Shown: piece after piece, positions 16,254 through 62,293 of the stretch
How the letters are laid out: each line of letters starts with the position of its first letter
Position numbering within the stretch: the first letter of the stretch is position 1
Origin: Streptomyces glaucescens
Lineage (GTDB): Bacteria > Actinomycetota > Actinomycetes > Streptomycetales > Streptomycetaceae
Assembly (NCBI RefSeq): GCF_000761215.1
Contig: NZ_CP009438.1
Location: 992,001-1,056,000 of the forward strand
Length of the DNA: 64,000 nucleotides
Direction: 5' to 3'
Made by a program: the position numbers and the translations under genes
Notes under the pieces: generated by a model
What the model saw: the letters and a program-made list of their open reading frames with translations, nothing else
Told to the model about the DNA's origin: nothing
The model's database searches: none

Positions 16254-18230
16254 TCACAGGGAGACGGTGCGGACGTCCGGCCGGCCGGCGCCCCCGTTCA
16301 GGCACCGCGCCCGGGGTGCGGCCGGTCCCCGTTCGAGCACCCGGGTGAGCGCCGCCTGGCGCAGCGCCGGAGACTCCCGTTCCGCGCACTCGGCGGCGTA
16401 GAGGCCGATGAGGCCGTGGAAGCGGTACCGGTGGCCCGGTTCCTCCTCCAGCAGGTGATGCGCGGCCAGCAGCGAGAGCAGCCTGCGGGTGGTGTCCCGG
16501 TCCGTCTCCGCGAGCGTCGCCGCGATCTCGACGGTGAACGGGCCGCCGTGCAGCCCCAGATAGCGGAACATGCGGGCCGCGTCGGCCGGAAGCGCGCGGT
16601 ACGACGCCGCGAAGGCGCAGCGCATGCTGGCGTTCGCGTCGCCCTCCACCGTGAGCCGGTCGAGCCGGCTGTGCTCGGCGGCGTACTGCTCGACCAGCGT
16701 GCTCAGCGGCACCCCGGGGCTGGCCGCCAGCCCGTGGGCGACGATGCGCAGGGCGAGGGGCAGTCCCCCGCAGACCGCCACCAGCCGCCGTACGGCCGCT
16801 TCCTGACCGACGAGCCGGCTGCCGCTCAGCCCGGTGAGCAGGCGTGCCGACGTGCTGTCGTCCAGCGGCCCGACGGTGAGCAGGTGCGCGCCGTCCCGTG
16901 CCGCGAGCCCGGCGAGGCGCTGCCTGCTGGTCGCGAGGACGCAGCAGGAACCGCCCGGTATCAGCGGGCGCAGCTGATCGGCGCTGAGGGCGTCGTCGAG
17001 CACCACCAGCATCCTGCGGCCGTGCAGCAGACTGCGGTAGAGGGAGGCGCGGGCGGCGAGGCCGGCGGGCATCCTCGTGGCGTCGACGCCGAGGCCGTCC
17101 AGGAGCTGGGCCAGGGCCTCCTGCGCGGTCAGGGGCTTGCCGCGCACCGCGGTGCCGCACAGGTCCACGTACAGCTGGCCGTCGGGAAACCGGTCGAGGA
17201 GCCGGTGCGCCAGGCGCAGGACGAACGCCGACTTGCCGGCCCCCGCCGGGCCGTCGACCACGGCCACCGGTGTCGTGGCGTCCGACCGCGTCAGCTCGTC
17301 CTCCAGCACGTCCGCCAGCCGTGCCAGTTCGACGGCGCGGCCCACGAACCCGCGTACGGAGGGCGGCAGTTGCCGCGGGCTGGGGGCCTGGGACAGCAGG
17401 ATCTCGCGGGGCGCTTCGGGCAGCGCGGCGGTGGTGTCCCCGCCGTGCGTGCGCAGCCCCGGGTGACCGCACAGGATCTGCTGGTAGAGGTCGCGCAGTT
17501 CGGCGCCGGGCTCGATGCCCAGTTCACTGCTCAGCAGGCGCCGGATCTCGTCGTAGACCCGCAGCGCGTGGGCCTGCCGGCCGTTGCGGTACAGGGTCAG
17601 CATCAGCAGCCAGCGCAGTTTCTCCCGCAGCGGCTCCTCGGACACGGCGCGGATCAGTTCGGCGGCGGTCTCGCCGTGCCGGCCCGCCGCCAGCATGTCG
17701 GCGGCCCATTCCTCGACGGCGGTGAGCCTGAGGTCCCGCAGCCGGGTGCGTTCCATGGAGGCGAACGGGCCGGGGATCGCGGCGTACGCCTCGCCGCGCC
17801 ACAGCGACAGAGCCTCCTCGTACAGCCGCAGGGAGGTGTCGGTGTCCCCCTGGGCCCATGATCTGCGGGCCTCGGTGTGGCGCCGGACGAAGAGGGCGGC
17901 GTCCACCTGGTCCGGTTCGGTCCGCAGGCAGTACCCGCCGGACGCGGAGACGAGGACCGCGCTGGCTCCTCTCCTGCTGCGCCCGGGCTCCAGCTCCCGG
18001 CGCAGTCCGGCCACATAGGTGTGCACGCTGTTGGCTGCCGAGTGCGGTACGTCGCCGTCCCACAGGGCGTCCACGATGGTGTCGACGCCCACGACGTCGT
18101 TGGCGCGGCTGGCGAGGAGGCTGAGCACGGCACGCTGCTTGGGCGGGCCCAGCGGCACCTCCGTCCCGTCCCGCCAGGCCCGCACCGGGCCGAGGAGCTG
18201 TATGCGCAGAGGTGTCCCCGTGATGGCCAT
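16254..18230 (-). CDS. SARP-family activator with NTPase domain (AfsR-like)
   Basis: The 658-aa protein has an OmpR-type winged helix (residues ~8-103, PLGPPKQRAVLSLLASRAN ... GYCL) and a bacterial transcriptional activation domain (~110-255, ending IEPGAELRDLYQQIL). An NB-ARC-like ATPase with P-loop GPAGAGKSAF (~327-336) and VVLDDA Walker B follows, then a helical arm. The TPR domain of AfsR itself is missing. GGAGG stands upstream of ATG 18230. SARP proteins bind direct heptamer repeats and activate secondary-metabolite operons. Lying 57 bp after the salicylate synthase gene, it is the best candidate for cluster-situated activator. Confidence 0.92.
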   Translation of the reverse strand: MAITGTPLRIQLLGPVRAWRDGTEVPLGPPKQRAVLSLLASRANDVVGVDTIVDALWDGDVPHSAANSVHTYVAGLRRELEPGRSRRGASAVLVSASGGYCLRTEPDQVDAALFVRRHTEARRSWAQGDTDTSLRLYEEALSLWRGEAYAAIPGPFASMERTRLRDLRLTAVEEWAADMLAAGRHGETAAELIRAVSEEPLREKLRWLLMLTLYRNGRQAHALRVYDEIRRLLSSELGIEPGAELRDLYQQILCGHPGLRTHGGDTTAALPEAPREILLSQAPSPRQLPPSVRGFVGRAVELARLADVLEDELTRSDATTPVAVVDGPAGAGKSAFVLRLAHRLLDRFPDGQLYVDLCGTAVRGKPLTAQEALAQLLDGLGVDATRMPAGLAARASLYRSLLHGRRMLVVLDDALSADQLRPLIPGGSCCVLATSRQRLAGLAARDGAHLLTVGPLDDSTSARLLTGLSGSRLVGQEAAVRRLVAVCGGLPLALRIVAHGLAASPGVPLSTLVEQYAAEHSRLDRLTVEGDANASMRCAFAASYRALPADAARMFRYLGLHGGPFTVEIAATLAETDRDTTRRLLSLLAAHHLLEEEPGHRYRFHGLIGLYAAECAERESPALRQAALTRVLERGPAAPRARCLNGGAGRPDVRTVSL

Positions 18231-18287
18231 CGGCCAGTCCCCTCCTGAAGTGGTGTTCCGTCCGGTCGTGCGTCGGCGCCCCGCGCA

Positions 18288-19703
18288 TCAGCGCGGCGGA
18301 CGCGGCCGGCTCTCCGCCGCGCCGGTGTCGTCCGCGCCGGTTTCGTCCGCGCCGGTGTCCTCGGCCGGTTCCGCCGGACGGTCGGTACGGGCCACCAGCG
18401 ACCGGGAGACGGACATCAGCTTCTCCCGGGTCTCCTCCAGCTCCCGCTCGGCGCGGGACTGCTCCACCACGCCGGCTCCGGCCCGCAGCCAGGTCCTGCC
18501 GTCGCGCGCGTAGGCGCTGCGCAGTACCAGGGCGGCATCCATCGCCCCGTCCTGCGTGACCTTCATGACGGCGCCCGCGTACGGGCCCCGGGCCTGGCTC
18601 TCGTAGCGCGAGATCGCCTCGTACGCGGCGGGTTTGGGCACCCCGGAGGCCGTGACGGCGGGGAACACCGCGGCGAACGCCTGCCAGGGGTCCGCTCCCT
18701 CCGGCAGCCGGCCCACGACCTTCGACGCCAGGTGCTGCACGGTGCCGCGTTCCTTGACGGTCATGAACTCCGTCACGGCCACCGTCTCCGCTTCGCAGGA
18801 ACCGGCGAGTTCGTCGACGGCGACCTTCACCGAGATGGCGTGCTCGTGGAGTTCCTTGGGGTCGGCGAGGAGGTCCTCGCGTAGCTTGCGGTCCAGTTCG
18901 GGGTCGCCGGTCAGCGCACGGGTGCCGGCGAGGGGCTGACTGGCGACGCGGCGCTCGACGTCCACCTCCACCACGGTCTCCGGGCTGAAGCCGAAGGCGC
19001 GCAGTCCGCCCATGCTCAGCAGGAAGGAACGGGTGGGCGAGTTGGCCCGGCGTCCGGCGGCGAAGCTGGCGGGGAAGTCGATCTCCTCGGGTACGGGCAC
19101 CACCCGGGAGATGACGGCCTTCTGCAGCAGTCCGGCTCGGATGTCCCGGACCAGGGAGGTCACGTGACGCAGGTAGTCGGCGGCGCCGGCTTCGAGGTCG
19201 ACGCGGACCGGCCGCCGGGTACCGGCGGTGGGTGCGGCGGCGTCGGTGACGGCGTCCTCCACGGTCGCGAGGGCCGCGCCGTACAGACTGCGGACGACGG
19301 CCCGGCCGCCGCTCAGCCGCACCTCCGTCTCGGGGACGACCAGGTGCGCGAGGACATCGTCCCGTTCGGCCGCGGCCGCGGTCCCCGCGAGGAGCGGGGC
19401 CAGCTCGAACGCGCACCAGCCGTAGGCGGTCCAGTCCGCCATCGGCAGGTCCGCCAGGAATTCCCGGATCCGGTGGAGCGGATTCCCGTTCCAGCGCTCC
19501 TCGGTCACCACACCGTCTCGTGTGGTGCGAATACATCGCGGCGTCAGCAGGACTTCGGCCGCTGTTCCCCCGGCCACGGACCAGCCCTCGGGGTCCTCGT
19601 ACACCACGAAGGTGTCCCAGATTCCGGAGGAGGCGAGTCCGGTCACGATATCGAGCGGCTCACGCCTTGTTTCCATGGTGGCTGTGCGGTAATGGACCTT
19701 CAC
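18288..19703 (-). CDS. salicylate synthase (chorismate-utilising, MbtI/Irp9 type)
   Basis: The enzyme converts chorismate via isochorismate to salicylate and pyruvate in one protein. The 471-aa product carries chorismate-binding signatures FGFSPETVVEVD and SQPLAGTRAL. The catalytic C-terminal block KVTQDGAMDAALVLRSAYA ... RAGAGVVEQS and the late ELEETREKLM helix are also present. GTG at 19703, behind CAGGGGATAG, is preferred; the frame stays open to 19796, and an ATG lies 9 codons further in. The C-terminal ~25 residues are an acidic repeat-like tail (DTGADETGADDTGA). It provides the salicylate starter for the ligase at 54.8 kb and the ArCP. The SARP gene follows 57 bp downstream. Confidence 0.93.
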   Translation of the reverse strand: MKVHYRTATMETRREPLDIVTGLASSGIWDTFVVYEDPEGWSVAGGTAAEVLLTPRCIRTTRDGVVTEERWNGNPLHRIREFLADLPMADWTAYGWCAFELAPLLAGTAAAAERDDVLAHLVVPETEVRLSGGRAVVRSLYGAALATVEDAVTDAAAPTAGTRRPVRVDLEAGAADYLRHVTSLVRDIRAGLLQKAVISRVVPVPEEIDFPASFAAGRRANSPTRSFLLSMGGLRAFGFSPETVVEVDVERRVASQPLAGTRALTGDPELDRKLREDLLADPKELHEHAISVKVAVDELAGSCEAETVAVTEFMTVKERGTVQHLASKVVGRLPEGADPWQAFAAVFPAVTASGVPKPAAYEAISRYESQARGPYAGAVMKVTQDGAMDAALVLRSAYARDGRTWLRAGAGVVEQSRAERELEETREKLMSVSRSLVARTDRPAEPAEDTGADETGADDTGAAESRPRPPR

Positions 19704-20540
19704 ACCTATCCCCTGAGTAGGCAGGGCGAAGACAGGCGGGATTGCCGGCACATGCCCCCGCCGGCGCTTCCCCCGAATCGACAGCGCAGCGCTCATTTCC
19801 AGCTATGGAGAATGTTGGGCAGCCGTGGCGGAGCCCGGCCGGGCAGGCGGCATCAGGAAAGCGAGCGACCGGTGGGAAATCCCGGCCGCCCACCGTGAGA
19901 GCCGCTCAGTCCGAGCGCCACGGAGCGTCGGAGCGGGGCGCCGCCGCATCGACCCGCAGGCCGGCGACGGTGCACCGGGCTCCGGAGAGGTGTCCGGCGG
20001 CACACCCACCGCACGGAAGAAGGCGCGCCTCGCACCGAGGATGCCGACTCCGCGTCAAGGCCGAAACCGGCCACTGTGATGTGGCACATCACCTTCCGGA
20101 TGTGCCCTGCCTCAAGGTTCGCGCACCTGCTGGGTCACGACCTGAAAAGGCTTTCCCCGTACGGTCTCAGAAAATGCCGCGCCCGTCGCCAAACCACCGA
20201 TGGGATTCGCCCCCCGACCGATCTCCCCGTCGGACGTCAATCCGCCTGACATCGGCGGACCGGTCCCCGGTGAACCCCCTCAACAAACCTCCCGACAAGG
20301 TTTGGCCGAGCATCTGCCCTCCAGCTTTTTATACTCGTAAGCTGTGCGCGCAAGGTCACAGTAGCTGTTGAGTGACCGATTGTCACCCCCCGGACTGACA
20401 GGCAGAGAGGGCGTCCCGGGAACAGAAATGAAGGCACGCGTATTCCCCGCCCCGCCGACGAGGGGAACCCGAGTCTCCTTGACCGTTGAACGAAAGGCAG
20501 GCATTCCCCGCCGGACGAGGACCGGCCGCGGAACGCCGAA
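19704..20540. other. long intergenic region upstream of salicylate synthase
   Basis: About 840 bp separate the AsnB-side terminator from the salicylate synthase start. No open frame here has coding character. It contains a perfect 17-bp palindrome (20076-20092) and an A/T-rich patch with a minus-strand TATAAA (20328-20333) that could be a -10 box. If so, the salicylate synthase mRNA would have a leader of about 600 nt. By eye I saw no convincing iron-box or Zur-box sequence. Confidence 0.5.
20076..20092. promoter_or_regulatory. perfect 17-bp palindrome, candidate operator
   Basis: GTGATGTG and CACATCAC flank a central G with no mismatch. A further half-like element (GGATGTGCC) follows about 6 nt later. 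It lies ~370 bp upstream of the salicylate synthase start. A symmetric 8-1-8 dyad suits a dimeric repressor; which protein binds is unknown. Confidence 0.5.
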
Positions 20541-20598: not shown

Positions 20599-22443
20599 TC
20601 AGTCCAGCAGCAGCTCGGGGGAATGCAGCTCCAGCCAGGTGTGCAGGTCGAGCACCCGCTCCAGACCGGCCCGGACCGCCACCGTCATGGCCGCCGGGTC
20701 CTGGGCCACGACCGTCTGCGCCCACGCGCGGTCGACCAGGGCGAAGACCTGCGCGTCGGGCGCCGCGATCAGCTCCTTCACCTGCTGCTGCAGGATCGCC
20801 GCGTACCCGGGGTCCTGCGGCGACGGGTACGGGCTCTTGACCCGCTCCACCACCGACCGCGGCATTACATGCGCCGCCGCCTGGCGCAGCAGGCTCTTCT
20901 CCCGGCCGTCGAACGTCTTCATCGACCACGGGGTGTTGTAGACGTACTGCACCAGCTCGTGGTTGCAGAACGGCACGCGGACCTCCAGCCCGACGGCCAT
21001 CGACAGCCGGTCCTTGCGGTCCAGCATGTTGCGCACGAACCGGGTCAGATGGAGGTGGAAGATGGAGCGCATGCGCCGCTCCACCTCGGACTCGCCGTCC
21101 AGGTGCTCCACCTCGGCGAGGGCCGTCGCGTACTGGTCGGCGGTGTACGTGCCCACGTCGAGCCGCTTGCGCAGCCCCGGCTCGATGTGGTCGGTGCGGG
21201 CCGGGAGGCTGAGCGGCGGGATGACCGCCATCCACGGGAACGTCTGGACGCGGGTCAGCGGCTCGTGGTGGAACCAGGGGTACCCGCCGAACACCTCGTC
21301 GGCCGACTCGCCCGACAGCGCCACCGTCGAGCGTTCCCGGATCGCCTTGAACAGCAGGTACAGCGAGCTGTCGAGGTCACCGAAGCCGTTCGGGATGTCC
21401 CGGGCGCCGACGGTCGCGCGCCGCACCGCGGGATCGGAGATGTCGGCCGGGTTCAGCATCACGTCGTGGTGGTCGGACCCCACGTGGGCCGCGACGTCCC
21501 TGACGAACGGCGAGTCCGGGGTCTCGCGCATCTCGTCCGGGACGAAGTTCTCCTCCTGGCCGGCGAAGTCCACCGAGAACGTGCGGACCCGCTCGCCCCG
21601 CAGGGCCAGCCGCTCCGCCGCCAGGCCGGTGATCGCGCTGGAGTCCAGCCCGCCGGAGAGCAGGACGCACTGCGGTACGTCCGAGATCAGCTGCCGGTCG
21701 ACGATCCCGGTGAGCATCTCCCGCACCCGCGCCACGGTGTCGTCCCGGCTGTCCGTGTGCTCGGCGGCCCGCAGCCGCCAGTAGGTCCGCTCCCGCAGGC
21801 CGCGGCGGTCGACGCTGATCAGCGTGCCCGGCAGCATCTCGTGCATGCCCTTGTACAGCGCCCAGCCCGGCGTCTTGGTCTGCGCGAACAGCTCCCGCAG
21901 CCCTTCGGTGTCGACGACCTTGCGCGCCAGCGGGTTCGCCAGGATCGCCTTGGGCTCGGAGCCGAACAGCACACCGTCCGGCGTGGGGTAGTAGTAGAGC
22001 GGCTTGATCCCCATGCGGTCGCGCACGAGCAGCAGCTTCTGCTCCCGCTCGTCCCAGACCGCGAACGCGTACATCCCGTCGAGGTGGTCGACGAGGCTCT
22101 CGCCCCACTCCAGGTAGCCGTGCAGCACCACCTCCGTGTCGCTGTCCGTCCGGAAGGCGTGCCCGAGCGACGTCAGCCGCCGGCGCAGCTCCTGGAAGTT
22201 GTAGGCCTCACCGGAGTACACCAGGGCGACCTCGCCGGCCGGGGTGCTCACGCTCATCGGCTGCGTTCCGCCGGGCAGGTCGATGATGGCCAGGCGCCGG
22301 TGACCGAGGCCGACGTGGGTGCGCACGAAGGTGCCCCGGCCGTCCGGCCCGCGGCAGGCCATGGTCTCGGTCATCGCATCGAGCGTCTCGCCCCGGTGCG
22401 TCAAGTCGGCGTCGAACGACACCCATCCCGCGATCCCGCACAT
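20599..22443 (-). CDS. asnB: asparagine synthase-type glutamine-dependent amidotransferase
   Basis: The 614-aa protein is a class II glutamine amidotransferase. Met1-Cys2 (MCGIAGWV) places the nucleophilic Cys at the N-terminus after Met removal, which fixes ATG 22443 as the start. The glutaminase domain runs to ~residue 210. The synthetase domain has the ATP pyrophosphatase loop LLSGGLDSSAITGL (~265-278) and SGESADEVFGGYPWF. It activates a carboxylate as acyl-AMP and transfers ammonia. It lies 87 bp after the EntF-like NRPS gene and shares its terminator. It may therefore make free Asn, or more interestingly amidate a pathway intermediate, as AsnB homologues do in some antibiotic pathways. 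The substrate is open. Confidence 0.92.
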   Translation of the reverse strand: MCGIAGWVSFDADLTHRGETLDAMTETMACRGPDGRGTFVRTHVGLGHRRLAIIDLPGGTQPMSVSTPAGEVALVYSGEAYNFQELRRRLTSLGHAFRTDSDTEVVLHGYLEWGESLVDHLDGMYAFAVWDEREQKLLLVRDRMGIKPLYYYPTPDGVLFGSEPKAILANPLARKVVDTEGLRELFAQTKTPGWALYKGMHEMLPGTLISVDRRGLRERTYWRLRAAEHTDSRDDTVARVREMLTGIVDRQLISDVPQCVLLSGGLDSSAITGLAAERLALRGERVRTFSVDFAGQEENFVPDEMRETPDSPFVRDVAAHVGSDHHDVMLNPADISDPAVRRATVGARDIPNGFGDLDSSLYLLFKAIRERSTVALSGESADEVFGGYPWFHHEPLTRVQTFPWMAVIPPLSLPARTDHIEPGLRKRLDVGTYTADQYATALAEVEHLDGESEVERRMRSIFHLHLTRFVRNMLDRKDRLSMAVGLEVRVPFCNHELVQYVYNTPWSMKTFDGREKSLLRQAAAHVMPRSVVERVKSPYPSPQDPGYAAILQQQVKELIAAPDAQVFALVDRAWAQTVVAQDPAAMTVAVRAGLERVLDLHTWLELHSPELLLD

Positions 22444-22530
22444 TTCACAACCCCATTTCCCTACGATTCCGTGCTGTGGCAGGCGACGCACCGGCGGTCG
22501 GCGCGCGCGGGCGGGCCGACGGACCGGCCG

Positions 22531-26496
<3,966 letters not shown>

Positions 26497-32115: not shown

Positions 32116-33950
<1,835 letters not shown>

Positions 33951-44112: not shown

Positions 44113-45924
<1,812 letters not shown>

Positions 45925-50049: not shown

Positions 50050-50187
50050 TCGACTCCCCTCCATCAACTGGGACCGCATAACGATAGCATACGCGTACGA
50101 AAATTAATCCCTCCGTGGCGCAATCTCTCCCGCCGGAAAAACGGAGGATTCCGTTTCGGTGATATGACGCGCGTAGATACGGCAGAC

Positions 50188-51800: not shown

Positions 51801-51873
51801 TATGTCCTCACTTCCATCGCACTGACCCGGTATCAACCATGAACTCGGATGGGGCCGTCACCGGCCCGGCCGG

Positions 51874-53127
51874 CTATGCGGCCCCGCCGTCGGCGCATTC
51901 CTCGACGAACTCCAGAAGCCCGCGCACGCCGGTCTCCAGCGCCACCGGATCGACGCAGAAGGCGATCCGGACCAGATGCCGGGCCCAGGGCGCGTAGTCG
52001 TGGGAGCGGACCCGGCCCCGCTCGTCGACGTCGGGGCGCATCGCGAAGCCCTCGCCCGGAACGACCGCGACGCCCTTGCGCTCCAGCAGCCGGGTCGCGA
52101 AGGTCTCGGCGTCCAGCCCGGTCCTGGCCACGTCGAGCATCGCGTACCATCCGCCGGCCGGCAGTTCCCGCAGCAGCCCGGCCCGGATCAGCGGCGGCAG
52201 CGCCACGTCCCGGTTGCGCTGCACCAGCTTGCGGTTGGCCGCCGTCGAGTCGGCCCGGCTGTTCAGCGCGGCGATCCCCGCGTACTGCACGGGCGTCGAC
52301 GTGCCGATGATGTTGGCCTCCTGGACGACCTTCATCACGTCGGCGGCCCGGTCGTTGGCCAGCGCCACGTAACCCAGCCGGTACCCGGTCATCGCGAAGC
52401 TCTTGGAGAAGCTGAACACGCTGTGCACGATCCGCTCGTCGACCGGGACGTCGCGTTCCAGCGAGGCGGTCGAGATGTGCTCGCGCTCGTAGAGGAAGTG
52501 CTCGTAGGCCTCGTCGCTGATGACCTGCCAGCCGCGGCCGCGGGCCAGGTCCAGCAGGGCGGTGAGCTCCGCTCGGTCCAGGACGACGCCGGTGGGGTTG
52601 GCCGGCGAGTTGATCAGCAGCACGCGGGTGCGCGGGGTCGCGGCGGCGGCGATCGCCTCGGGGTCGGGCCGCAGGTCGGCGCCCAGCGGGTACAGCACGG
52701 GGCGGAAACCGGCGAGCAGACTCTGCTGGAGGTGGACCGGCCAGTGCAGCTCCGGCAGCAGGATCTCGGCGCCGGGCTCGGCCAGCGACTGGAGCAGGGC
52801 GGCCAGGCCCTGGCAGGAACCGGGCGAGATCAGCAGCCGGGAGACCGCGCTGTCCACCTCGTTGTCCGCGCGGAGCTTCTCCACCACCGCCGCCCGCAGT
52901 TGGGGCAGGCCCTCCACACCGGTGTACTTGGTCTCGCCCCGCCGCACGGCGTCCATGAAGGCTTCGGCGACATCGTCGGACGGATTGAAGTAGGGGTCGC
53001 CGACGTGCAGCTTAGTCACCGCGACGCCGGACTCCTCCTCCCGCTTCTCCGCGGCCCGGAAGATGCGGTGCAGACACGAGGAGGGGATGGATTCGGCGGC
53101 GGACAGGATCTCTTGGCTCACGCTCAC
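51874..53127 (-). CDS. PLP-dependent aminotransferase, class I/II
   Basis: The 417-aa fold-type I enzyme has the substrate loop VGDPYFNPSD, NSPANPTGVVLDRAEL, SDEAYEHFLY and the PLP lysine K242 in SFSKSFAMTGYRLGY. It belongs to the aspartate aminotransferase superfamily that includes aromatic and kynurenine aminotransferases. Between halogenase and SDR it may transaminate (chloro)tryptophan or (chloro)kynurenine; the latter would cyclise to a kynurenate-type quinoline. The start is one of two GTG codons (53127 or 53121) behind GAAGG. The substrate is inferred from context. Confidence 0.88.
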   Translation of the reverse strand: MSVSQEILSAAESIPSSCLHRIFRAAEKREEESGVAVTKLHVGDPYFNPSDDVAEAFMDAVRRGETKYTGVEGLPQLRAAVVEKLRADNEVDSAVSRLLISPGSCQGLAALLQSLAEPGAEILLPELHWPVHLQQSLLAGFRPVLYPLGADLRPDPEAIAAAATPRTRVLLINSPANPTGVVLDRAELTALLDLARGRGWQVISDEAYEHFLYEREHISTASLERDVPVDERIVHSVFSFSKSFAMTGYRLGYVALANDRAADVMKVVQEANIIGTSTPVQYAGIAALNSRADSTAANRKLVQRNRDVALPPLIRAGLLRELPAGGWYAMLDVARTGLDAETFATRLLERKGVAVVPGEGFAMRPDVDERGRVRSHDYAPWARHLVRIAFCVDPVALETGVRGLLEFVEECADGGAA

Positions 53128-53171
53128 AGCACCTTCGTTCCGTTGAGTGTTCTTCGGACTCGCGCGATGTG

Positions 53172-53918
53172 TCATGCGGTGCGGCCACCGTCGACGGGGA
53201 TCAGCGCACCGGTGACCCAGCCGGACGATTCGGGGTCGAGCAGCATGCACACCCATCGGCCGATCTCGGTGTCCTCGCCGAACCGCCCCATCGGGGTCGA
53301 CGACCGGAGGTCGACGCGCAGTCGCTCGGTGGCCGCCTCGTCCAGCCCGGTCTCGTTCCACATCGGGGTGTCCACGGGTCCGGGCATAATGGCGTTCACC
53401 CGTACGTCCGGGGCGAGTTCCCTCGCCAGCGAGCGGGTGAGGCTGTTCAGGGCGGCCTTGGTCGCGCCGTAGAAGGACCGCCCCGGCATGGACAGCACCG
53501 CGCCGACGGACGAGATGTTGACGACGCTGCCGCGGCGGGCGCGCAGGTGCGGCAGGGCGCGGCGGACCAGTTCGGCGGGGGCCCGCACGTTGACGGCGAA
53601 CATCGCGTCGAACAGCGCGGGGTCGCTCTCGTCGAGCCGCCCGAAGCGGGCCAGACCCGCGTTGTTGACCACCGCGTCGACCCCGCCGAAGCGGTCGGCC
53701 GCCGTCGCGACGATCCGTTCGGCGGCGCCGGGCGCGGAGACGTCCTGCGCCACGTACGCGACCGCGGGTCCGTACCGGTCCGCCAGGTCGCGCAGCGGTT
53801 CCTCCCGCCGGCCGACGAGCGTCACGCGGGCGCCCGCCTTCACCACGCACTCCGTGATGCCCCGGCCGATACCGGTGGCAGCGCCGGTGATCACCACCGA
53901 CTTCCCGTCCAGGGTCAT
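53172..53918 (-). CDS. short-chain dehydrogenase/reductase
   Basis: The 248-aa classical SDR has the NAD(P) motif TGAATGIG (11-18), NNAG (85-88), catalytic Ser136/137 (NISSVGA), and Tyr150 and Lys154 (YGATK). The C-terminal PVDGG is also present. ATG 53918 overlaps the thioesterase stop (ATGA) and the aminotransferase follows after 44 bp, so all belong to one transcript. It could reduce the keto acid made by the aminotransferase or the aryl ketone of kynurenine. No residue identifies the substrate. Confidence 0.92.
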   Translation of the reverse strand: MTLDGKSVVITGAATGIGRGITECVVKAGARVTLVGRREEPLRDLADRYGPAVAYVAQDVSAPGAAERIVATAADRFGGVDAVVNNAGLARFGRLDESDPALFDAMFAVNVRAPAELVRRALPHLRARRGSVVNISSVGAVLSMPGRSFYGATKAALNSLTRSLARELAPDVRVNAIMPGPVDTPMWNETGLDEAATERLRVDLRSSTPMGRFGEDTEIGRWVCMLLDPESSGWVTGALIPVDGGRTA

Positions 53919-54697
53919 CGCACGGCCTCGCTCTCCGCGAGGGCCGCGGCCAGGTCGGTGATCAGCTCGCCGGGGTCCGAGAGGGGCCGGAAGTGCCCGC
54001 CCGGCTGGGGCCGCACGGTGAAGGGGCCGGTGCCGACCTCGGCCCAGGCGGCGACTCGCTCCTCGTCGACCAGCGGGTCCTCGGTGTTGTAGTAGCAGCG
54101 CACCGGGCACCGCAGCGGTTCGGGGTGCGGCGCCGGCCGGTACGTCTCGTTGAGGGTGATGTCGGCCCGGACCACCGGCAGCAGCAGCTCACGGAGTTCG
54201 GGGTCGTCCGCGACGGCCGGGTCGATGCCGCCCAGTTCGCCCAGTACGGCCCACAGTTCGTCGTCGGTGGCGCGGTGCGTGGTGCCGCCCCCGGCGCGCG
54301 ACGGCGCCGGTGACCCCGACACGAACAGGCGGTGCGCGGGCCGGCCGTGGTCCTGCAGCACGCGGGCGGTCTCGTACGCGACCAGGGCGCCCAGGCTGTG
54401 CCCGAACAGGGAGCAGGGAACCGGATCCCGTCGCAGCAGTTCCCCGGCGACGGCGGACGCCATCTCGGCGACGCTGTCCGCGGGTGCTTCGGCGAACCGG
54501 TCGGCGTGCCCCGGATACTGTACGGCGAGCAGCTCCCAGTCCCCGGGCAGCGCCCGCGGCCAGGCACGATAGGCCGCCGCGGTGCCCCCGGAGTGCGGGA
54601 AGCAGACCAGCCGGCCGGCCGGGTGCGCCACCTCGCCGATGACCCGCACCCACCCTCGGTCACCCGTTCGTATGCCATTCACGCCACCGAGCTTCAC
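53915..54697 (-). CDS. type II thioesterase (second copy)
   Basis: This 260-aa alpha/beta hydrolase has LVCFPHSGGTAAAYRAW, GHSLGALVAYETARV with a normal Ser, and a C-terminal GGHFRPL. It probably removes wrong acyl groups from a carrier protein, perhaps the A-PCP. It is divergent from the salicylate ligase across ~106 bp. The start is uncertain: GTG 54697 lacks a clear ribosome-binding site. It heads the SDR-aminotransferase-halogenase unit, unlike the first type II TE, which sits with transporters. Confidence 0.88.
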   Translation of the reverse strand: MKLGGVNGIRTGDRGWVRVIGEVAHPAGRLVCFPHSGGTAAAYRAWPRALPGDWELLAVQYPGHADRFAEAPADSVAEMASAVAGELLRRDPVPCSLFGHSLGALVAYETARVLQDHGRPAHRLFVSGSPAPSRAGGGTTHRATDDELWAVLGELGGIDPAVADDPELRELLLPVVRADITLNETYRPAPHPEPLRCPVRCYYNTEDPLVDEERVAAWAEVGTGPFTVRPQPGGHFRPLSDPGELITDLAAALAESEAVR

Positions 54698-54803: not shown

Positions 54804-56414
54804 ATGCTGGACGGGTTCGTGCCCTGGCCATCCGAGTTCGCCGAACGCTACCGCCGCGCCGGCTACTGGAAAGGTGTCTCGCTGCGGCAGCTGCTCACCG
54901 ACCGGGCCGGCCGCCACCCCGACAAGATCGCGGCCGTGGACGCGACGCGCCGGGTCACCTACGCCGAACTGGCGGAGGAGGCCGACCGGGTGGCGTCCGG
55001 GCTGCTCGACCTCGGCGTCTCCAGCCGTGACCGGGTCGTGGTGCACCTGCCCAACAGGATCGACTTCCTGACCACCGTCCTCGCGCTGTTCGGCATCGGC
55101 GCGATCCCCGTGATGGCCCTGCCCGGCCACCGCCGCGACGAGATCCTCCACCTGGCGCGCTCCTCGGACGCGGTGGCTTACGTCGGCCCGGACCGGTTCC
55201 AGGGCTTCGACTTCCGCCAACTGGCCCGCGAGGTGCGCCGCGACGCCCCGGGCATGAAGCACGTCGTCATCGCCGGTGAGGCGGACGGCTTCACCCCGCT
55301 GGCCGAGCTCGCCGGGTCCGCGGCCCGGGAGCTGCCGCCGGTCGACTCCTCCGAGGTGGCGCTGCTGCTGCTGTCGGGCGGGACCACCGGTGTGCCGAAG
55401 CTGATCCCGCGGACGCACGACGACTACGCGTACAACATCTCTGCCTGCGCGCGGGTGGTCGACTTCGACGACAGCGGTGTCTACCTCGCCGCCAACCCCG
55501 TGCCGCACAACGCCGCGCTCGGCTGCCCCGGCGCCCTCGGCGCGGTGCTCCTCGGCGGGAAGGCCGTCCTCGCCGCGAACCCCAGCCCGGACCACGTGTT
55601 CCCGCTGATCGAGCAGGAGGGGGTCACCCTCACCACGCTGGTGCCGGCGCTGGCCCTGCTGTGGGCGGAGGCGGCGCGGAGCACCCCCGTCGACATGTCC
55701 CGCGTGACCATCCAGGTCGGCAGCTCGAAGTTCGGGCCCGCCGCCGCGGCCCGGGTGAGCGAGAGCCTCGGATGCCGGCTGATGAACGTGTACGGCATCG
55801 GTGAGGGGCTGATCACCCACACCCGCCGGGACGACCCGCCGGAGGTCGTCTTCGGCACCGAGGGCCGGCCGGTGTGCCCGGACGACGAGATCAGGATCGT
55901 CGACACCGAGGACAACGACGTCGCTCCCGGCGAGACGGGAGAACTGCTCACCCGCGGCCCGTACACCATCCGGGGCTACTTCGCCGCGCCGGACCACAAC
56001 CGGCGGTCGTTCACCGCGGACGGCTTCTACCGCACCGGCGACCTGGCCCGGATGACCGAGGACGGGAACGTCGTCATCGAGGGCCGGCTGAAGGACATCA
56101 TCCACCACCTGGGCGAGAAGGTGTCGGCCGAGGAGGTGGAAGGCCATGTGCTGACCCACCCGCTGGTGCGGGACACCGCCGTGGTCGGCGTCCCGGACGA
56201 CGAACTCGACGAGCGGCTCTGTGTCTTCGTGGTGCTCACGGCCGACGCGGACACCGAGCGGACCCCGGTCACGCTGCGCACGATCAGGGAGCACATCCGC
56301 GGTCGCGGGCTGGCATCGTACAAACTGCCCGACGAGCTGATCGTGGTCTCCGACCTGCCTCGGACTCCGGTGGGCAAGATCGACAAGAAGGCCCTGAAGG
56401 CAGCTCGGCCGTAG
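54804..56414 (+). CDS. salicylate-AMP ligase (DhbE/PchD/YbtE type)
   Basis: 536 aa. It has the core motif LLLSGGTTGVPKLIPRTHDDY, NVYGIGEGLI, YRTGDLARMTEDGN and TPVGKIDKKAL. The pocket segment reads PVPHNAALGCPGALG. His-Asn matches the hydroxyl-binding residues of DhbE, and Cys stands where DHB-activating enzymes have Ser, which is a salicylate feature as I remember it. The two residues after HN are Ala-Ala instead of the usual Tyr-Pro, so the pocket may be larger. It transfers salicylate to the ArCP of the PchE-like protein. AGGAGG precedes ATG 54804. Confidence 0.93.
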   Translation: MLDGFVPWPSEFAERYRRAGYWKGVSLRQLLTDRAGRHPDKIAAVDATRRVTYAELAEEADRVASGLLDLGVSSRDRVVVHLPNRIDFLTTVLALFGIGAIPVMALPGHRRDEILHLARSSDAVAYVGPDRFQGFDFRQLAREVRRDAPGMKHVVIAGEADGFTPLAELAGSAARELPPVDSSEVALLLLSGGTTGVPKLIPRTHDDYAYNISACARVVDFDDSGVYLAANPVPHNAALGCPGALGAVLLGGKAVLAANPSPDHVFPLIEQEGVTLTTLVPALALLWAEAARSTPVDMSRVTIQVGSSKFGPAAAARVSESLGCRLMNVYGIGEGLITHTRRDDPPEVVFGTEGRPVCPDDEIRIVDTEDNDVAPGETGELLTRGPYTIRGYFAAPDHNRRSFTADGFYRTGDLARMTEDGNVVIEGRLKDIIHHLGEKVSAEEVEGHVLTHPLVRDTAVVGVPDDELDERLCVFVVLTADADTERTPVTLRTIREHIRGRGLASYKLPDELIVVSDLPRTPVGKIDKKALKAARP

Positions 56415-56479: not shown

Positions 56480-56504
56480 ACGTGCATGCGCACCAGGCCG
56501 TTCG

Positions 56505-56910: not shown

Positions 56911-58377
56911 TCACTCCCGCTCGGGGACCAGCTCCCCCTTCTCGTCCTCCGTCTGGCTCGCCGGGCCGGTGCGCGGCAGGACGGTGAAGGCGACGACGAC
57001 GGCGGCGAGCAGGATCACGGCGCCGATGGTCATGCCCAGCGCGTAGCCGTCGTTGAGGGCCTCCAGCGAGGCCGTGTCACCGGTGCGGTGGGTGGCGGCG
57101 GTGCCGAGCGCGGCCAGACCGAGCGAGGCGCCGATCTGGCGGGTGCTGCTGAGCATGCCGGAGGCGGTGCCCGTCTCGTGCGGGGCCACCCCGACGGTGG
57201 CCGTCGAGACCACCGGGGCGAGGCAGAGGCCGAACCCGATGCTGGTGACGATCGACGGGCCCAGCACGTCGGCCAGGAAGGAGCCGTCCGCGCTCATCAT
57301 GCCGAACCAGGCGAACCCGGCCGCGGTCAGCAGTCCGCCACCGACCAGGAGGGTCCGGGCGGGGACCCGGTAGCCGAGCTTGATGGCGATCACGGAACCG
57401 ACGATCACGCCCAGCGCGAAGGGCAGGAACTGGATGCCGCTCATGGCCGGGCCCTCCCCCAGGACGCGCTGGAGGTAGAGCGAGACGAAGTAGAAGGCCG
57501 AGGCCATCGCGCCGCCGAGGAGGAGGTTGTAGCTGTTGGCACCGGCGACGGAGCGGTTGCTGAACAGGCCGAGCCGGATCAGCGGGTCGCGGGCCGTGGT
57601 CCGCTCGACGTAGATGAACGCGGCCAGCAGGACGACGGCGATCGCCAGGGTCGTGAGGGTGACCGACGAGCCCCACGCGTGCTGGTCGGTGCGCACGACG
57701 CCGAACACGAGCAGGGTCATGCCGGCCGTGGCGAGGACGGCGCCCAGCACGTCCGGACGGCCGCGGCGCTGGGCCGGCGGATCCGCGGCGACACCCCGCC
57801 AGGCCAGGGCCAGGGCCACGGCGGCCATGGGGACGTTGACGAGCATCACCCATTCCCAGCCGGCGTACTCGGTCAGCACGCCGCCGATCAGCACGCCGAG
57901 GGCCCCGCCCGCGGCGTTCATCGCGCTCCACACGCCGAAGGCCTTCACCCGCGCCTTGCCCGACGGGAAGGTCGAGGTGAGCAGGGCGAGCGCGGCCGGG
58001 GCCAGGGTGGCGGCGCCGACGCCCTGCACGGCACGGGCGGCCACCAGGTGGCCTGGTTCCTGCGCGAAGCCGCCGATGAGCGAGGCGAGGCCGAACACGG
58101 GCAGGCCGATCAGCAGGATCCGCTTGTGGCCGTACCGGTCGGCGATCTTGCCGCCCAGGAGGAGCAGGCCACCGAAGGTGAGCGCGTAGGCGTGGATCAC
58201 CCAGGTCAGGCCGGCGTCACTGAAGCCGAGGCCGGAGGCGATCTCCGGAAGTCCGACGTTCACGACCGAAAGGTCCAGCGACACCATGAACTGCACCACA
58301 GCAACCGCGGCCAGGGTCAACCCCGGATTGGCGGCCCGGTCGACGGCCGTCCCACCTACAGATTCGGTGTTTGTCAC
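56911..58377 (-). CDS. MFS drug-resistance transporter, 14-TM DHA2 (EmrB/QacA type)
   Basis: The 488-aa proton-driven exporter has 14 hydrophobic segments. Motif A-type loop GGKIADRYGHKRILLIG lies after TM2, and the TWVIHAYALTFGG segment of the DHA2 group is present. GTG 58377 follows GGAGG by 10 nt. It is divergent from a TetR gene with a strong dyad between them, the usual repressor-pump pair. It probably exports the cluster product or a toxic intermediate. Confidence 0.93.
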   Translation of the reverse strand: MTNTESVGGTAVDRAANPGLTLAAVAVVQFMVSLDLSVVNVGLPEIASGLGFSDAGLTWVIHAYALTFGGLLLLGGKIADRYGHKRILLIGLPVFGLASLIGGFAQEPGHLVAARAVQGVGAATLAPAALALLTSTFPSGKARVKAFGVWSAMNAAGGALGVLIGGVLTEYAGWEWVMLVNVPMAAVALALAWRGVAADPPAQRRGRPDVLGAVLATAGMTLLVFGVVRTDQHAWGSSVTLTTLAIAVVLLAAFIYVERTTARDPLIRLGLFSNRSVAGANSYNLLLGGAMASAFYFVSLYLQRVLGEGPAMSGIQFLPFALGVIVGSVIAIKLGYRVPARTLLVGGGLLTAAGFAWFGMMSADGSFLADVLGPSIVTSIGFGLCLAPVVSTATVGVAPHETGTASGMLSSTRQIGASLGLAALGTAATHRTGDTASLEALNDGYALGMTIGAVILLAAVVVAFTVLPRTGPASQTEDEKGELVPERE

Positions 58378-59325: not shown

Positions 59326-59368
59326 AGGCTAGGAACCAGACGATGCCGATCGCCAAGGGGAGTTGACG

Positions 59369-59914
59369 GTGAGTAGCGATCTCTTGAGCACCGTGGACGG
59401 CGGGCGTGCGCAGCCGGCGCGCCCGGCCGGCCCGAAGGCGCGGATCCCCGACTGCCCGCTGGCGCGGACCGTCGAGGCCGTCGGCCCGTGGTGGACTCTG
59501 GAGATCCTGCACGAGGTCTTCGACGGCCACGACCGCTTCGCGGACATCCGCCACAACCTGGAGACGCCCGCGGACGTCCTGCGGGACCGGCTCGCGGACC
59601 TCGTGGCGCGGGGCCTGCTGGAGACCGCGGACGAGACCGCGGACCCCCAGGAGCGCGCCTACCGGCTCACCGAGAGCGGCCGCGCGTTGCGCCCGCTCAT
59701 CCTGGTCATGGCCGCCTGGGGGAACCGACTGCTCGCCCCCGAGGACCGCAGCCTGGTCCTGGTCGACGCCGAGACGGGCGCCGAGGCGGACCCGGTCGTG
59801 GTGGACCGGCTGACCGGACGGCGGCTGGACACCCCCGGCTTCGTCTTCGCCCGCGGCCCCCGGGCGAGCGCGCAGATCAGCGCCCGCTATCCGGAGGTCC
59901 CCGCGCGGCACTGA
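59369..59914 (+). CDS. HxlR-family transcriptional regulator
   Basis: The 181-aa MarR-like winged-helix protein has the HxlR signature CPLARTVEAVGPWWTLEILHEVFDG (residues ~28-52, N-terminal Cys), RFADIRHNLETPADVLRDRL and ERAYRLTESGRALRPLI. GTG 59369 has AAGGGGAG 7 nt upstream and is preferred to the TTG two codons earlier. HxlR proteins respond to electrophiles or redox state. Its position next to the MFS/tetR pair suggests control of export or stress genes at this end of the cluster. Confidence 0.88.
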   Translation: MSSDLLSTVDGGRAQPARPAGPKARIPDCPLARTVEAVGPWWTLEILHEVFDGHDRFADIRHNLETPADVLRDRLADLVARGLLETADETADPQERAYRLTESGRALRPLILVMAAWGNRLLAPEDRSLVLVDAETGAEADPVVVDRLTGRRLDTPGFVFARGPRASAQISARYPEVPARH

Positions 59915-60443
59915 GCCGCTCGTCCCCGGGCCGCGACCTGGCGGACGGCTCGTCCCGGTGACCGCCGCACGGCTTCCGCCGGCACCTGCCGACGGACAGG
60001 CCGTCGCCGCGGTCGGCGCGGCGGGCCGTCGCGACGGGCCGGAGCCCGGGGGACCGCGGCTCACCGTGGTCCCGCCCCCGTCCCGTGGCGGGTGACGGCA
60101 CGGTCCTCGGAAGCACCCGGTCCGGACCCGGCCCGCGGGCGTCGTGGGCCCGTGCGGTCCGGCAGGCACGGCGGGCGGCCGTCGGCCCCCGCACCACCGG
60201 CCGTCCGCCGCCGTGAGGCCCATGCCCTCCCCGTCCCCGGCTCCTGTCTCCTTCGCCCTCCAGCCCTCTGCCCCTCCGCCCTTCCGCCTTCCTGCCCCCC
60301 TCTGTCCTCCGCCCTTCCGCCTTCCTGCCCCCCTCTGTCCTCCGCCCTTCCGCCTCTCTGCCCCCTCTGCCCCTCTGCCCCTCAGTGGAGCCCTCCCTGT
60401 CGGACCGACCGCGCCGGAACGGCCACGAAAGGCCCTGACCGCC
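59915..60443. other. 529-bp gap without a gene
   Basis: No frame has coding character. The gap holds the 33-bp tandem repeat at 60276-60373, and the leader of the antiporter gene. Confidence 0.5.
60276..60373. repeat. 33-bp pyrimidine-rich tandem repeat, ~3 copies
   Basis: CCGCCCTTCCGCC begins at 60276, 60309 and 60342 (33-bp period), separated by TTCCTGCCCCCCTCTGTCCT-like text. The third copy is diverged at its end. The plus strand is about 95% C/T, so the minus strand is a purine tract. It lies ~70 bp upstream of the antiporter start. Confidence 0.8.
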
Positions 60444-61763
60444 ATGGACGTATCGGACCTGCTCTCCCGTGCCGCGCACGTGTCCGCGGCACTCGCCGTC
60501 GTGCTGCTCCTGGCCCGCCTGGGGCGGAACGCCGCGCGCCGGCTGCGCCAGCCGGAAGTCGTCGGGGAGGTCACGGTGGGGCTGCTCGTCGGGCCCGCCG
60601 TGCTCGCGCTGTCCGACCGCGCGCTGTTCGACGCGCTGCTGCCGGCCGCCGTCCTCGACGTGCTCACCTTCGTCGGGCAGACCGGACTCGTGCTCTATCT
60701 CGTCGGCCTCGCCCACAAGCTGCGGCCCGGGCCGGGCGGCCCGCCCCGGCGGGCGCTGTCCGCGCTGGTGGCCGGCGCCTTCGTGGTGCCCCTCGCCACG
60801 GGGCTGCTGCTGGTGGGGCTGATCGCGCTCACCGGCGACACGGCGGCCCGGGGCGAGGTGCCGCTGCCCGCCTTCTGCCTGATGGTCGCGGTCACCCTGT
60901 CCATCACCGCCGTCCCGGTGCTGTCCCGGATCCTCGGCGACCGGGGCCTGAGCGAGTCGGCCGAGGGACGGCTCGCCCTCGCGTCCGCCATCGTCATGGA
61001 CGGACTGGGCTGGATCATGCTCACGCTCGCCGTGGGGCTCGGCGCGGACGACCTGTCGGGCCTGTGGGAGCCCGCCGTCGCGCTGCTCGCGGGCGGCGGC
61101 TGCGCCCTCCTGCTGCGGCTGGGGCTGCGCACCGCGCCCGCGCGCCGGCTGTGCCGCCGGCTGCCGCGGACGACCGCGGTCCTGCTCGGCGGTGCCGCGC
61201 TGGGCACGGCCCTGCTCACCGAGCACCTGGGCATGACCGCCATCGTCGGCGCCGCGCTGGTGGGTCTGGCGATCCCCGGCGAGGACGCGGCGGCCGCCGA
61301 CGCGGGCCCGGCCCCCTGGACCGAGCCCGTGACCGCCGTGTCGCACACCGGGCGGATGCTGACACCGGTCTTCTTCGTGGTCACCGGGGTCACCGTGCTC
61401 ATCGACGCGTTCAGCGCCGCGTCCTGGACGCTGATCGCCGGCACGCTGGTGCTGGGCTGCTCGGGCAAGCTGCTCGGCGGTTACGCCGGGGCCCGGCTGG
61501 CCGGCACCGGGCCCGCACCGGCGCGCCGTATCGGTGTCCTCATGAACACCCGAGGCCTGACCGAGCTGATCGTGATCGAGGCCGGCCACCGGGCCGGCAT
61601 CCTGCCGGCGCCGATGGTCCTCGCCCTGGTGGTGATGGCCCTGGCGACCACGGCCATGACGGGACCGCTGCTCGGTCTCGTCGACCGCGCCGAGCGACGC
61701 GGCAGCGTACCGGACCGTTCCGAACTCCCCCGCTCCGTAGCGACGGAAGGCAGTACCCGATGA
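60444..61763 (+). CDS. cation/proton antiporter (CPA2 family)
   Basis: The 439-aa protein has about 12 hydrophobic segments. The CPA2 core RQPEVVGEVTVGLLVGP, the discontinuous-helix region VTLSITAVPVLSRIL and LMNTRGLTELIVIEAG are present. It exchanges Na+ or K+ for H+. The ATG at 60444 begins the first TM segment cleanly; the open frame upstream runs through the repeat and is non-coding in character. It overlaps the flavin reductase by ATGA, so the two are co-translated. A link to product resistance or ion homeostasis is possible. Confidence 0.9.
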   Translation: MDVSDLLSRAAHVSAALAVVLLLARLGRNAARRLRQPEVVGEVTVGLLVGPAVLALSDRALFDALLPAAVLDVLTFVGQTGLVLYLVGLAHKLRPGPGGPPRRALSALVAGAFVVPLATGLLLVGLIALTGDTAARGEVPLPAFCLMVAVTLSITAVPVLSRILGDRGLSESAEGRLALASAIVMDGLGWIMLTLAVGLGADDLSGLWEPAVALLAGGGCALLLRLGLRTAPARRLCRRLPRTTAVLLGGAALGTALLTEHLGMTAIVGAALVGLAIPGEDAAAADAGPAPWTEPVTAVSHTGRMLTPVFFVVTGVTVLIDAFSAASWTLIAGTLVLGCSGKLLGGYAGARLAGTGPAPARRIGVLMNTRGLTELIVIEAGHRAGILPAPMVLALVVMALATTAMTGPLLGLVDRAERRGSVPDRSELPRSVATEGSTR

Positions 61764-62293
61764 CCGAATACCCGGCCGCGGCCGCCACGCCCCAGCCCAC
61801 GGTGGCCGAGGCGACGCCCGACGAGTTCCGGACCATGATGAGCGGCTTCCCCACCGGGGTGTGCGTGGTCACCAGCGTCGACGGGGCCGGAGCGCCCTGG
61901 GGGATGACCTGCTCGTCGGTGTGCAGTGTCTCGCTCGCCCCGCCCACGCTGCTGGTGTGCCTGCGTTCGGGCAGCCCGACCCTGGCCGCGGTCCTGGACC
62001 GGGGCGCCTTCACGGTGAACCTGCTGCACGAGGGCGCCCAGGACGCCGCCGAGCTGTTCGCCTCGGGCAACCCGCACCGCTTCGACCTGCTGCCGTGGGA
62101 GCAGGACGCCGACGCCTCGGGTCCCCATCTGGTGCGGGACGCCCACACGGTGGCGGACTGCACGGTCTCCCTGACCCAGGCCGTCGGCGACCACGTGACC
62201 GTGTTCGGCCGTACCCGCAGGATCGTGCGGCACCGCACGCGGTCGCCGCTGCTGTACGGGCTGCGGCAGTTCAGGCCGTGGCCGGGGAGCTGA
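61760..62293 (+). CDS. flavin reductase (halogenase partner)
   Basis: The 177-aa flavin reductase-like domain protein has FRTMMSGFPTGVCVVTS, GMTCSSVCSVSLAPPTLLVCL, FTVNLLHEGAQDAAELFAS and a C-terminal PLLYGLRQFRP. It reduces FMN/FAD with NAD(P)H and releases the reduced flavin for a monooxygenase or halogenase. The tryptophan halogenase at 50.2 kb is the only FADH2-dependent partner seen. It is coupled to the antiporter by ATGA, and a strong hairpin follows. Confidence 0.9.
   Translation: MTEYPAAAATPQPTVAEATPDEFRTMMSGFPTGVCVVTSVDGAGAPWGMTCSSVCSVSLAPPTLLVCLRSGSPTLAAVLDRGAFTVNLLHEGAQDAAELFASGNPHRFDLLPWEQDADASGPHLVRDAHTVADCTVSLTQAVGDHVTVFGRTRRIVRHRTRSPLLYGLRQFRPWPGS

Follow-up and report, generated by a model that had tools for sequence, protein, structure and literature searches.

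Which molecule is made by a gene cluster in which a thiazoline-forming assembly line lies interleaved with a tryptophan (Trp) halogenase and a Trp 2,3-dioxygenase (TDO)? The question is raised by a stretch of 64,000 nucleotides of Streptomyces glaucescens (assembly GCF_000761215.1, contig NZ_CP009438.1, here C1, positions 992001-1056000; genome of 7.62 Mb on two contigs), which as a whole we call the window. A preliminary description had proposed a salicyl-bis-thiazoline line, a halogenated-kynurenine branch and a threonine (Thr) module, joined in one hybrid molecule or forming two interleaved pathways. We consider it likely that the window holds most of a cluster for a chlorinated 3-hydroxyquinolinyl-thiazoline-thiazolidine metallophore, as predicted from the combination of a halogenase, a gene set of the type that makes 3-hydroxyquinaldate (3HQA) and a line of nonribosomal peptide synthetases (NRPSs) resembling PchE and PchF. 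Genes were assigned by profile searches (Pfam, NCBIfam) and sequence matches to the PDB; gene identity, content and order, kinship (including that of the starter ligase) and co-occurrence were established directly. Window coordinates are continued past 64 kb for downstream genes, 124 kb having been read in this genome, and genes related to the cluster extend to ~99 kb.

The profile searches agree with the preliminary description on the salicylate synthase, AsnB, C-A-PCP-TE, imine reductase, PchE/PchF-like pair, free A-PCP didomain, TDO, halogenase, aminotransferase, short-chain dehydrogenase/reductase (SDR) and flavin reductase, and its gap of 101 bp between the A-PCP and PchE-like genes is right if the latter starts at the ATG at 44011. 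It had overlooked an MbtH gene (47740-47967), a second thioesterase (53915-54697) and the related genes beyond the end of the window.

The sections consulted of a report on Kribbella sp. CA-293567 (PMC9962454) assign the conversion of Trp into 3HQA to an A-T didomain protein and its MbtH partner, together with a P450, a TDO, a type II thioesterase, an oxidoreductase and an aminotransferase; a further gene common to the thiocoraline and sandramycin sets is TioJ/San3, which we read as the ligase. All eight proteins have counterparts here, seven in the window and the P450 outside it, at C1:1088154-1089359 (~96.2-97.4 kb). A missing P450 had at first seemed a gap in the pathway, which this gene overturned; its product shares 83% identity with that of S. 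daqingensis and 64% with that of Kribbella, the latter over 0.87 of the length. A locus of Kribbella sandramycini (L043), which we take to be a sandramycin producer, has the gene order of san3-san9 and encodes, besides a P450, relatives of the ligase (53%), A-PCP (59%), thioesterase (54%), SDR (58%), aminotransferase (62%) and TDO (48%). No MbtH gene is found in 21.8 kb of this locus, and san13, which encodes the MbtH protein, sits apart from the other san genes in the sections consulted (PMC9962454).

The A-PCP protein likely activates Trp or chloro-Trp, to judge from its sequence. It is 72-96% identical to relatives linked to thiazoline genes, and its pocket line reads FDAWFW and TSTGD, as against FDAAFW and MSTGD in Kribbella. 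This difference might fit chlorinated Trp, as a hint only, and the hint is weakened by a halogenase-bearing cluster lacking PchE and PchF (genome G238), which keeps the M of the pocket line. No multimodular depsipeptide NRPS stands beside the 3HQA genes: the NRPSs of the window are the Cy-type PchE/PchF pair and one C-A-PCP-TE protein. Kynurenine as an end product, in the manner of taromycin, was rejected, there being no large NRPS of such a kind in the window and a full 3HQA set instead. The match of the Trp genes to this set makes it likely that the pathway only passes through kynurenine and that quinaldate is the starter. Streptomyces loci in genomes G238, G092 and G354 (L021-L022, L073-L077) also carry genes of the 3HQA type, with a nearby Trp halogenase of 36-37% identity in two of them and 72% in one; these loci may make chlorinated 3HQA depsipeptides.

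The ligase at 54804 had been described as a salicylate ligase, and it was first read in this way because its best PDB alignments are with salicylate and dihydroxybenzoate (DHB) ligases; its score of 584 bits falls below the NCBIfam cut-off of 724 for DHB-AMP ligases. Pocket motifs and tree position place it elsewhere, with the ligases found in 3HQA contexts. Its pocket reads HNAALGCPG and GIGEGLITHT, and those of its top PDB matches HNFALACPG or HNYPLSSPG and GMAEGLLNYT or GMAEGLVNYT. The first motif is kept in all ten orthologues compared, the second being GIGEG or GTAEG followed by LIT (GTAEG in two; one ends in STH), and the ligase in the Kribbella 3HQA context has HNSALGCPG and GIGEGLLTYT. 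A second ligase in the same genome (93539), 50% identical to the first, carries HNFALACPG and GMAEGLLNYT, as does the solved salicylate ligase 5wm2. In a maximum-likelihood tree of 21 ligases, the 13 from 3HQA settings form one group (support 100/98) against eight from salicylate settings, and the window ligase falls with the K. sandramycini ligase (100/98); tree and setting are reconciled by one change, compared with a mean of 6.7 after shuffling. The ligase at 54804 is thus likely of the 3HQA type and not of the salicylate type, as a prediction of its activity.

Do the Trp genes and the thiazoline genes belong together? We compared eight large homologous regions of 59-100 kb each, from S. 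daqingensis, S. halstedii, S. sp. F-5727, Saccharopolyspora kobensis, Saccharomonospora NB11, Micromonospora andamanensis, M. lutea and Verrucosispora sediminis (from a genus often treated as part of Micromonospora); fragmentary short records from S. glaucescens, SID5910 and Micromonospora CP22 were left out of this count. All eight hold the A-PCP, thioesterase, SDR, aminotransferase, first ligase, halogenase, flavin reductase, HxlR and small regulator, PchE, PchF, Irp3-type reductase and both ABC genes, and likewise the P450 and MbtH genes. None carries only one of the two sets, and gene order varies among these regions, which span four genera. A salicylate synthase was matched in none of the eight stretches (at E 1e-10). 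A salicyl starter for the PchE/PchF pair of the window was rejected on the ligase motifs, the ligase tree and this absence. TDO and halogenase switch together: a window-like TDO (61-82%) accompanies a halogenase of 80-84% identity in three of the eight regions, and another kind of TDO (25-29% identical to that of the window) a halogenase of 62% in the other five; the Saccharopolyspora copy of the second kind matches solved TDOs (E 2.1e-31).

A sample of 391 genomes of the order, in which three A-PCP candidates per genome were scored so that counts are lower bounds, gave A-PCP relatives of 76-77% identity in at least two genomes besides this one, both with Irp3 within 20 kb, and relatives of 59-61% in at least five, four of them without an Irp3 match and one with a 36% match on another contig. 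The halogenase is present in 10 of 11 other genomes carrying this A-PCP; no match was found in the SID5910 genome, nor in the Kribbella genome searched as a twelfth. As many as 72 of the 391 genomes have a member of the halogenase family, so that a halogenase alone says little. In the stretches read of six further regions (Kribbella, G238, G092, G354, G242 and G286), A-PCP, TDO and P450 occur in every case without the PchE/PchF pair, which argues that the 3HQA set moves between NRPS types.

What, then, does the salicylate synthase of the window do? Judging from its gene content, this genome has two lines interleaved, one of quinaldate and one of salicylate type, the PchE, PchF and ligase of the latter lying outside the window (Table); a P450 and a flavin-dependent monooxygenase (FMO) follow its ligase, and PchF2 holds a methyltransferase-like stretch, by reading alone. 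The earlier idea of two interleaved pathways is therefore right in that two lines are present, though their border runs elsewhere than was drawn and the second, salicylate-type PchE/PchF/ligase set is found beyond the window. This second line is the likely recipient of salicylate from the synthase at 18288. In S. daqingensis, the salicylate line occupies C1:500-542 kb, with a ligase 2 (77%), a PchE, a PchF2-like protein, an Irp3 of its own (68%), an ABC pair, a salicylate synthase (61-63%) and a SARP regulator, and the quinaldate line lies on a separate contig (C3:213-252 kb). Among 11 other genomes with A-PCP and Irp3 at 75% or more, seven have no salicylate synthase match above 37%; the remaining four have one of 93% (S. 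glaucescens), 63%, 53% and 46%. Contigs of S. glaucescens NRRL B-2706 show the same order as the window, SARP-SalSyn-AsnB-(C-A-PCP-TE)-ECF-TEII-ABC-Irp3 and PchE2-ligase 2-TetR-P450-FMO, so that misassembly of a single genome does not explain the interleaving. As a single Irp3-type match exists in our whole genome, the two lines may share this reductase. Kribbella sandramycini also has a salicylate-thiazoline cluster (G401:C18:450-472 kb; Irp3 46%, salicylate synthase 48-49%, ligase 56-57%), ~54 kb from its 3HQA genes on the same contig.

The route that these genes suggest would begin with chlorination of free Trp by the halogenase with its flavin reductase, and loading of chloro-Trp onto the A-PCP protein with the help of MbtH. 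The P450 outside the window would hydroxylate the beta-carbon of the loaded Trp, the thioesterase at 53915-54697 would release the product, the TDO would open the indole ring, and the aminotransferase and SDR would bring about ring closure and reduction to chloro-3HQA. The ligase at 54804 would then transfer chloro-3HQA to the ArCP of the PchE-like protein, the two Cy modules would add two cysteines (Cys) as thiazolines, one of which would be reduced by the Irp3-like enzyme, and the PchF-like TE domain would release the product, whose carboxylate AsnB may amidate; the ABC pair would transport the metal complex. Each chemical step, from the chloro-3HQA starter through the two Cys units, reduction and release to chlorine position and metal binding, is predicted from the families named.

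Several observations weigh against this interpretation. We know of no compound or enzyme assay for the cluster, and the A-PCP counts come from three candidates per genome. The P450 gene is separated from the flavin reductase by 34 kb and sits amid the salicylate-type genes, and profile searches give it generic matches. Pocket motifs are not uniform: the ligase from the 3HQA context of G092 has HQAALACPG and GISEGLLTYT, and one S. halstedii ligase from a salicylate context has GMAEGLLTLS (LLT for LLN), so that single pocket residues do not sort all ligases. The salicylate label of ligase 2 and of its S. glaucescens and S. halstedii relatives derives from distant neighbours or kinship, not from adjacency. 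In this genome, as in S. glaucescens NRRL B-2706, the salicylate synthase gene is adjacent to that of AsnB, so the enzyme could feed the quinaldate line with an alternative starter. S. halstedii carries a salicylate synthase (53%) with its own ligase on the contig of its quinaldate line, at ~54 kb from the AsnB end. Given the AurF-like genes nearby (see below), the final product may also be larger than the core drawn here. That the genome has only one Irp3-type reductase also counts against our interpretation, and it speaks for an alternative that we regard as unlikely, namely two starters on a partly shared line, with the Irp3 and ABC pair in common and a PchE-like ArCP that may take either chloro-3HQA from ligase 1 or salicylate from ligase 2, giving mixed metallophores. 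In S. daqingensis each line comes with an Irp3/ABC set of its own; the 124 kb read in the present genome contain one such ABC pair and a different reductase (87122-88381), and the two lines are interleaved. Each line nevertheless has its own PchE, PchF and ligase, and these have diverged to 57% (PchE1/PchE2) and 50% identity (the ligases).

It seems very improbable that the chloro-3HQA (or chloroquinoline) supplied by the Trp genes goes into a different product and that the PchE/PchF pair uses another aryl acid, the two sets being neighbours by chance or through shared regulation. Such an arrangement would fit the six regions whose stretches read have A-PCP, TDO and P450 without that pair, as well as the Kribbella salicylate-thiazoline cluster on the same contig as the 3HQA genes; yet all eight thiazoline-linked regions keep both sets in differing orders, and the seven genomes lacking a salicylate synthase match above 37% showed no other aryl-acid source, although other aryl acids were not searched for. 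We give hardly any credence to a single hybrid that joins a salicyl-bis-thiazoline to chlorokynurenine on the A-PCP protein and Thr from the C-A-PCP-TE protein. The genes for salicylate synthase, AsnB and C-A-PCP-TE through Irp3 do form an unbroken run on a single strand, both in the window and in S. glaucescens NRRL B-2706. But the ligase is not of the salicylate type, neither a salicylate synthase nor an orthologue of C-A-PCP-TE is found in the stretches read of the eight homologous regions, the A-PCP protein has no condensation domain, and thioesterase, MbtH, SDR and P450 fit the making of 3HQA. From the earlier single-molecule idea, the partnership of the Trp-halogenase set with the PchE/PchF pair is retained, while the salicyl starter and the kynurenine end-branch lack support.

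Table. Genes of the two lines and their neighbours, in window coordinates, with their occurrence in the eight homologous regions.
Feature	Coordinates	Strand	Evidence and remarks	Homologous regions
Salicylate synthase	18288..19796	-	TIGR03494, 430 bits (cut-off 325)	
AsnB-like amidotransferase	20599..22491	-	TIGR01536	7/8
C-A-PCP-TE (EntF-like)	22531..26496	-	Pfam; code read from sequence	
ECF-type transporter (ATPase pair, T and S components)	26653..29527	-		full set 2/8
Type II thioesterase	29595..30398	-	PF00975	7/8
ABC half-transporter pair, possibly IrtAB/YbtPQ type	30400..33950	-		8/8
Thiazolinyl imine reductase, Irp3 type	34075..35160	-	TIGR01761, 363 bits	8/8
PchF-like TubC_N-Cy-A-PCP-TE	35157..39395	-	Motifs Cy DFMALD, PCP DAGGNSL, TE GYCLGG	
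PchE-like ArCP-Cy-A-(MT/E-like)-PCP	39398..44011	-	Profile search	
Free A-PCP, TioK/San4 type	44113..45924	-	Profile search; identity to relatives	
TDO, TioF type	46263..46988	+	PF03301, 137 bits; matches solved TDOs	
Small winged-helix regulator (Trans_reg_C)	47082..47582	-		8/8
MbtH-like protein, TioT type	47740..47967	-	PF03621, 80 bits	8/8
Cys-His-Asp protein	48092..49099	-	No profile match	5/8 (48092-type gene)
LuxR-type response regulator	49444..50079	-	Copy of regulator at 80670-81275	
FAD-dependent Trp halogenase, 5-/6-halogenase group	50232..51836	-	PF04820, 455 bits	8/8
Class I/II aminotransferase, TioG type	51874..53160	-	Profile search; 62% to Kribbella copy	
SDR, TioH type	53172..54110	-	Likely true start near 53930; 58% to Kribbella copy	
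Type II thioesterase, TioQ type	53915..54697	-	PF00975; 54% to Kribbella copy	
Aryl-AMP ligase, 3HQA type (TioJ/San3), predicted	54804..56414	+	Pocket motifs and maximum-likelihood tree	
MFS efflux pump	56911..58377	-	Profile search	
HxlR-type regulator	59363..59914	+		8/8
Na+/H+ antiporter family gene	60144..61763	+	Profile search	
Flavin reductase, predicted halogenase partner	61760..62293	+	PF01613, 111 bits	8/8
PchF2	81759-87242		Outside window; BLAST and reading only	
Reductase, different from Irp3	87122-88381		Outside window	
PchE2	88578-93128		Outside window; 57% to PchE1	
Ligase 2, salicylate type	93539-95137		Outside window	

Together, the PchE-like and PchF-like proteins and the imine reductase make up a complete domain set of the pyochelin/thiazostatin type. 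The nearest solved relatives of the reductase are YbtU/Irp3 4gmf (E 1.8e-44) and 4gmg, and the PchF-like protein gives no methyltransferase match in the profile search. For the ABC pair, one gene was run against the PDB (32112), and IrtA and P-glycoprotein-like exporters tie as its best matches; the pair may move a metal complex, the presence of IrtA among these matches being an indirect hint only. AsnB and the thioesterase of the 29595 type are lacking from S. F-5727 alone among the eight regions. The C-A-PCP-TE protein appears by sequence comparison to be a lineage-specific extra: no orthologue occurs in the eight homologous stretches, where partial matches cover at most 0.45, and among the regions compared a full-length relative (90%) is found only in the near-identical S. 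glaucescens NRRL B-2706. Its first code residues, D-F-W, resemble those we associate with Thr domains. The TDO scores above the Pfam and below the NCBIfam cut-off. The best PDB matches of the halogenase are 5hy5, a Trp 6-halogenase, and 8fov, a Trp 5-halogenase, and the chlorine position is for this reason left between 5 and 6. The antiporter gene, which may serve halide or ion supply, has counterparts directly following a Trp halogenase in seven of nine Streptomyces loci fetched from outside this cluster family; a flavin reductase lies near the halogenase in all nine. The gap separating ligase 1 from the MFS gene contains tandem repeats of 36 bp at 56504-56838, with 6.2 copies in 56616-56838.

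Downstream, at 64-81 kb, lie genes for an AurF-like diiron oxygenase, a likely carrier protein of 81 amino acids, an amino acid:carrier ligase, an NMO/FabK-like protein, a hydrolase, an acyl carrier protein, a phosphopantetheinyl transferase and a protein of the 48092 type. An eight-gene block among these (L090:10358-16144, corresponding to 74.4-80.1 kb) has homologues in varied Streptomyces settings (L117-L136). The block neighbours the quinaldate line in Saccharopolyspora, S. F-5727, Saccharomonospora, M. andamanensis and Verrucosispora (only in part in the M. lutea stretch), with the salicylate line in S. daqingensis, and beyond the salicylate-type genes on the contig of S. halstedii that holds both lines. 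Ten further regions have the block in full (eight) or in part (two), with no A-PCP, halogenase or ligase 1 above 36% in the 40 kb read. These ten regions and its place in S. daqingensis argue against the block belonging to the quinaldate line only; it may supply either product with a shared portion.

The protein at 48092-49099 had been called a transglutaminase, a label without profile support: neither Pfam nor NCBIfam gives a match, PDB matches have E values of 0.8 or higher, and the structural model is of low confidence (mean pLDDT 47.9); C219, H256 and D272 are invariant in all ten homologues aligned. Its gene is a recent copy of that at 79119-80144 (99.7% identical over 331 amino acids). 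Direct repeats link 48092-49288 with 79119-80319 (95.7% DNA identity over 1202 bp) and, around the LuxR gene, 49444-50105 with 80670-81332 (87% over 665 bp). They flank ~30 kb in which the genes from the halogenase to AurF are included, and recombination between the copies would delete this stretch.

If our interpretation is true, a siderophore-type line has acquired the quinoline cap known from DNA-binding depsipeptides, together with an upstream halogenation, and the starter of a pyochelin-type line can be exchanged through the swap of a whole aryl-acid pathway. The two ligases of this genome, 50% identical and with different pockets, are well suited for a comparison of aryl-acid choice, and the cluster would provide a genetic entry point to chloroquinoline-thiazole alkaloids, lodopyridone among them. 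We tentatively suggest, as a possibility somewhat short of an even chance, that a widespread and undescribed actinobacterial family exists in which chloro-3HQA replaces salicylate at the head of a pyochelin-type line, that lodopyridone is a matured relative, and that this genome makes two starter-swapped siblings sharing a reductase. Among the results listed in searches of the open-access literature, which leaves out most subscription papers, no report described a cluster in which thiazoline NRPSs are combined with 3HQA genes and a Trp halogenase, a negative that does not establish absence.

How does the cluster compare with known systems? With the lines for pyochelin, thiazostatin and watasemycin it has in common ArCP-Cy-A-PCP and Cy-A-PCP-TE proteins, an Irp3-type reductase, an ABC pair and a type II thioesterase; it differs in that the starter ligase is not of the salicylate type, the PchF-like protein is without a methyltransferase match, and salicylate synthase is not conserved alongside. 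The mycemycin cluster likewise has a Trp halogenase, a TDO and salicylate genes, but there a kynureninase leads to chloroanthranilate, which a beta-ketoacyl-ACP synthase-like enzyme joins to salicylate, and the portions of the source consulted name no Cy-type NRPS (PMC5867642). The nearest chemistry found is that of lodopyridone from Saccharomonospora CNQ-490, in which, according to the parts of the reports consulted, ethanolamine, a thiomethyl pyridone, a thiazole and a chloroquinoline are combined (PMC6410326, PMC6627970). No gene cluster for lodopyridone appeared among the open-access results listed; a cluster related to ours is present in Saccharomonospora NB11 (G398), a strain different from the producer. 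The idea that NB11 is itself the taromycin/lodopyridone strain CNQ-490 was dropped, as NB11 has only one halogenase match. Lodopyridone differs from the core proposed here by its extra thiomethyl pyridone and ethanolamine. With the 3HQA pathway of thiocoraline and sandramycin (TioK/T/I/Q/F/G/H/J; san3-san9, san13) the agreement extends to all eight protein types, seven of which are present in the Kribbella locus in san3-san9 order. Unlike the 3HQA depsipeptide clusters, however, the set described here adjoins a heterocyclising PchE/PchF pair, adds a Trp halogenase and has an A-PCP pocket that differs from that of Kribbella.

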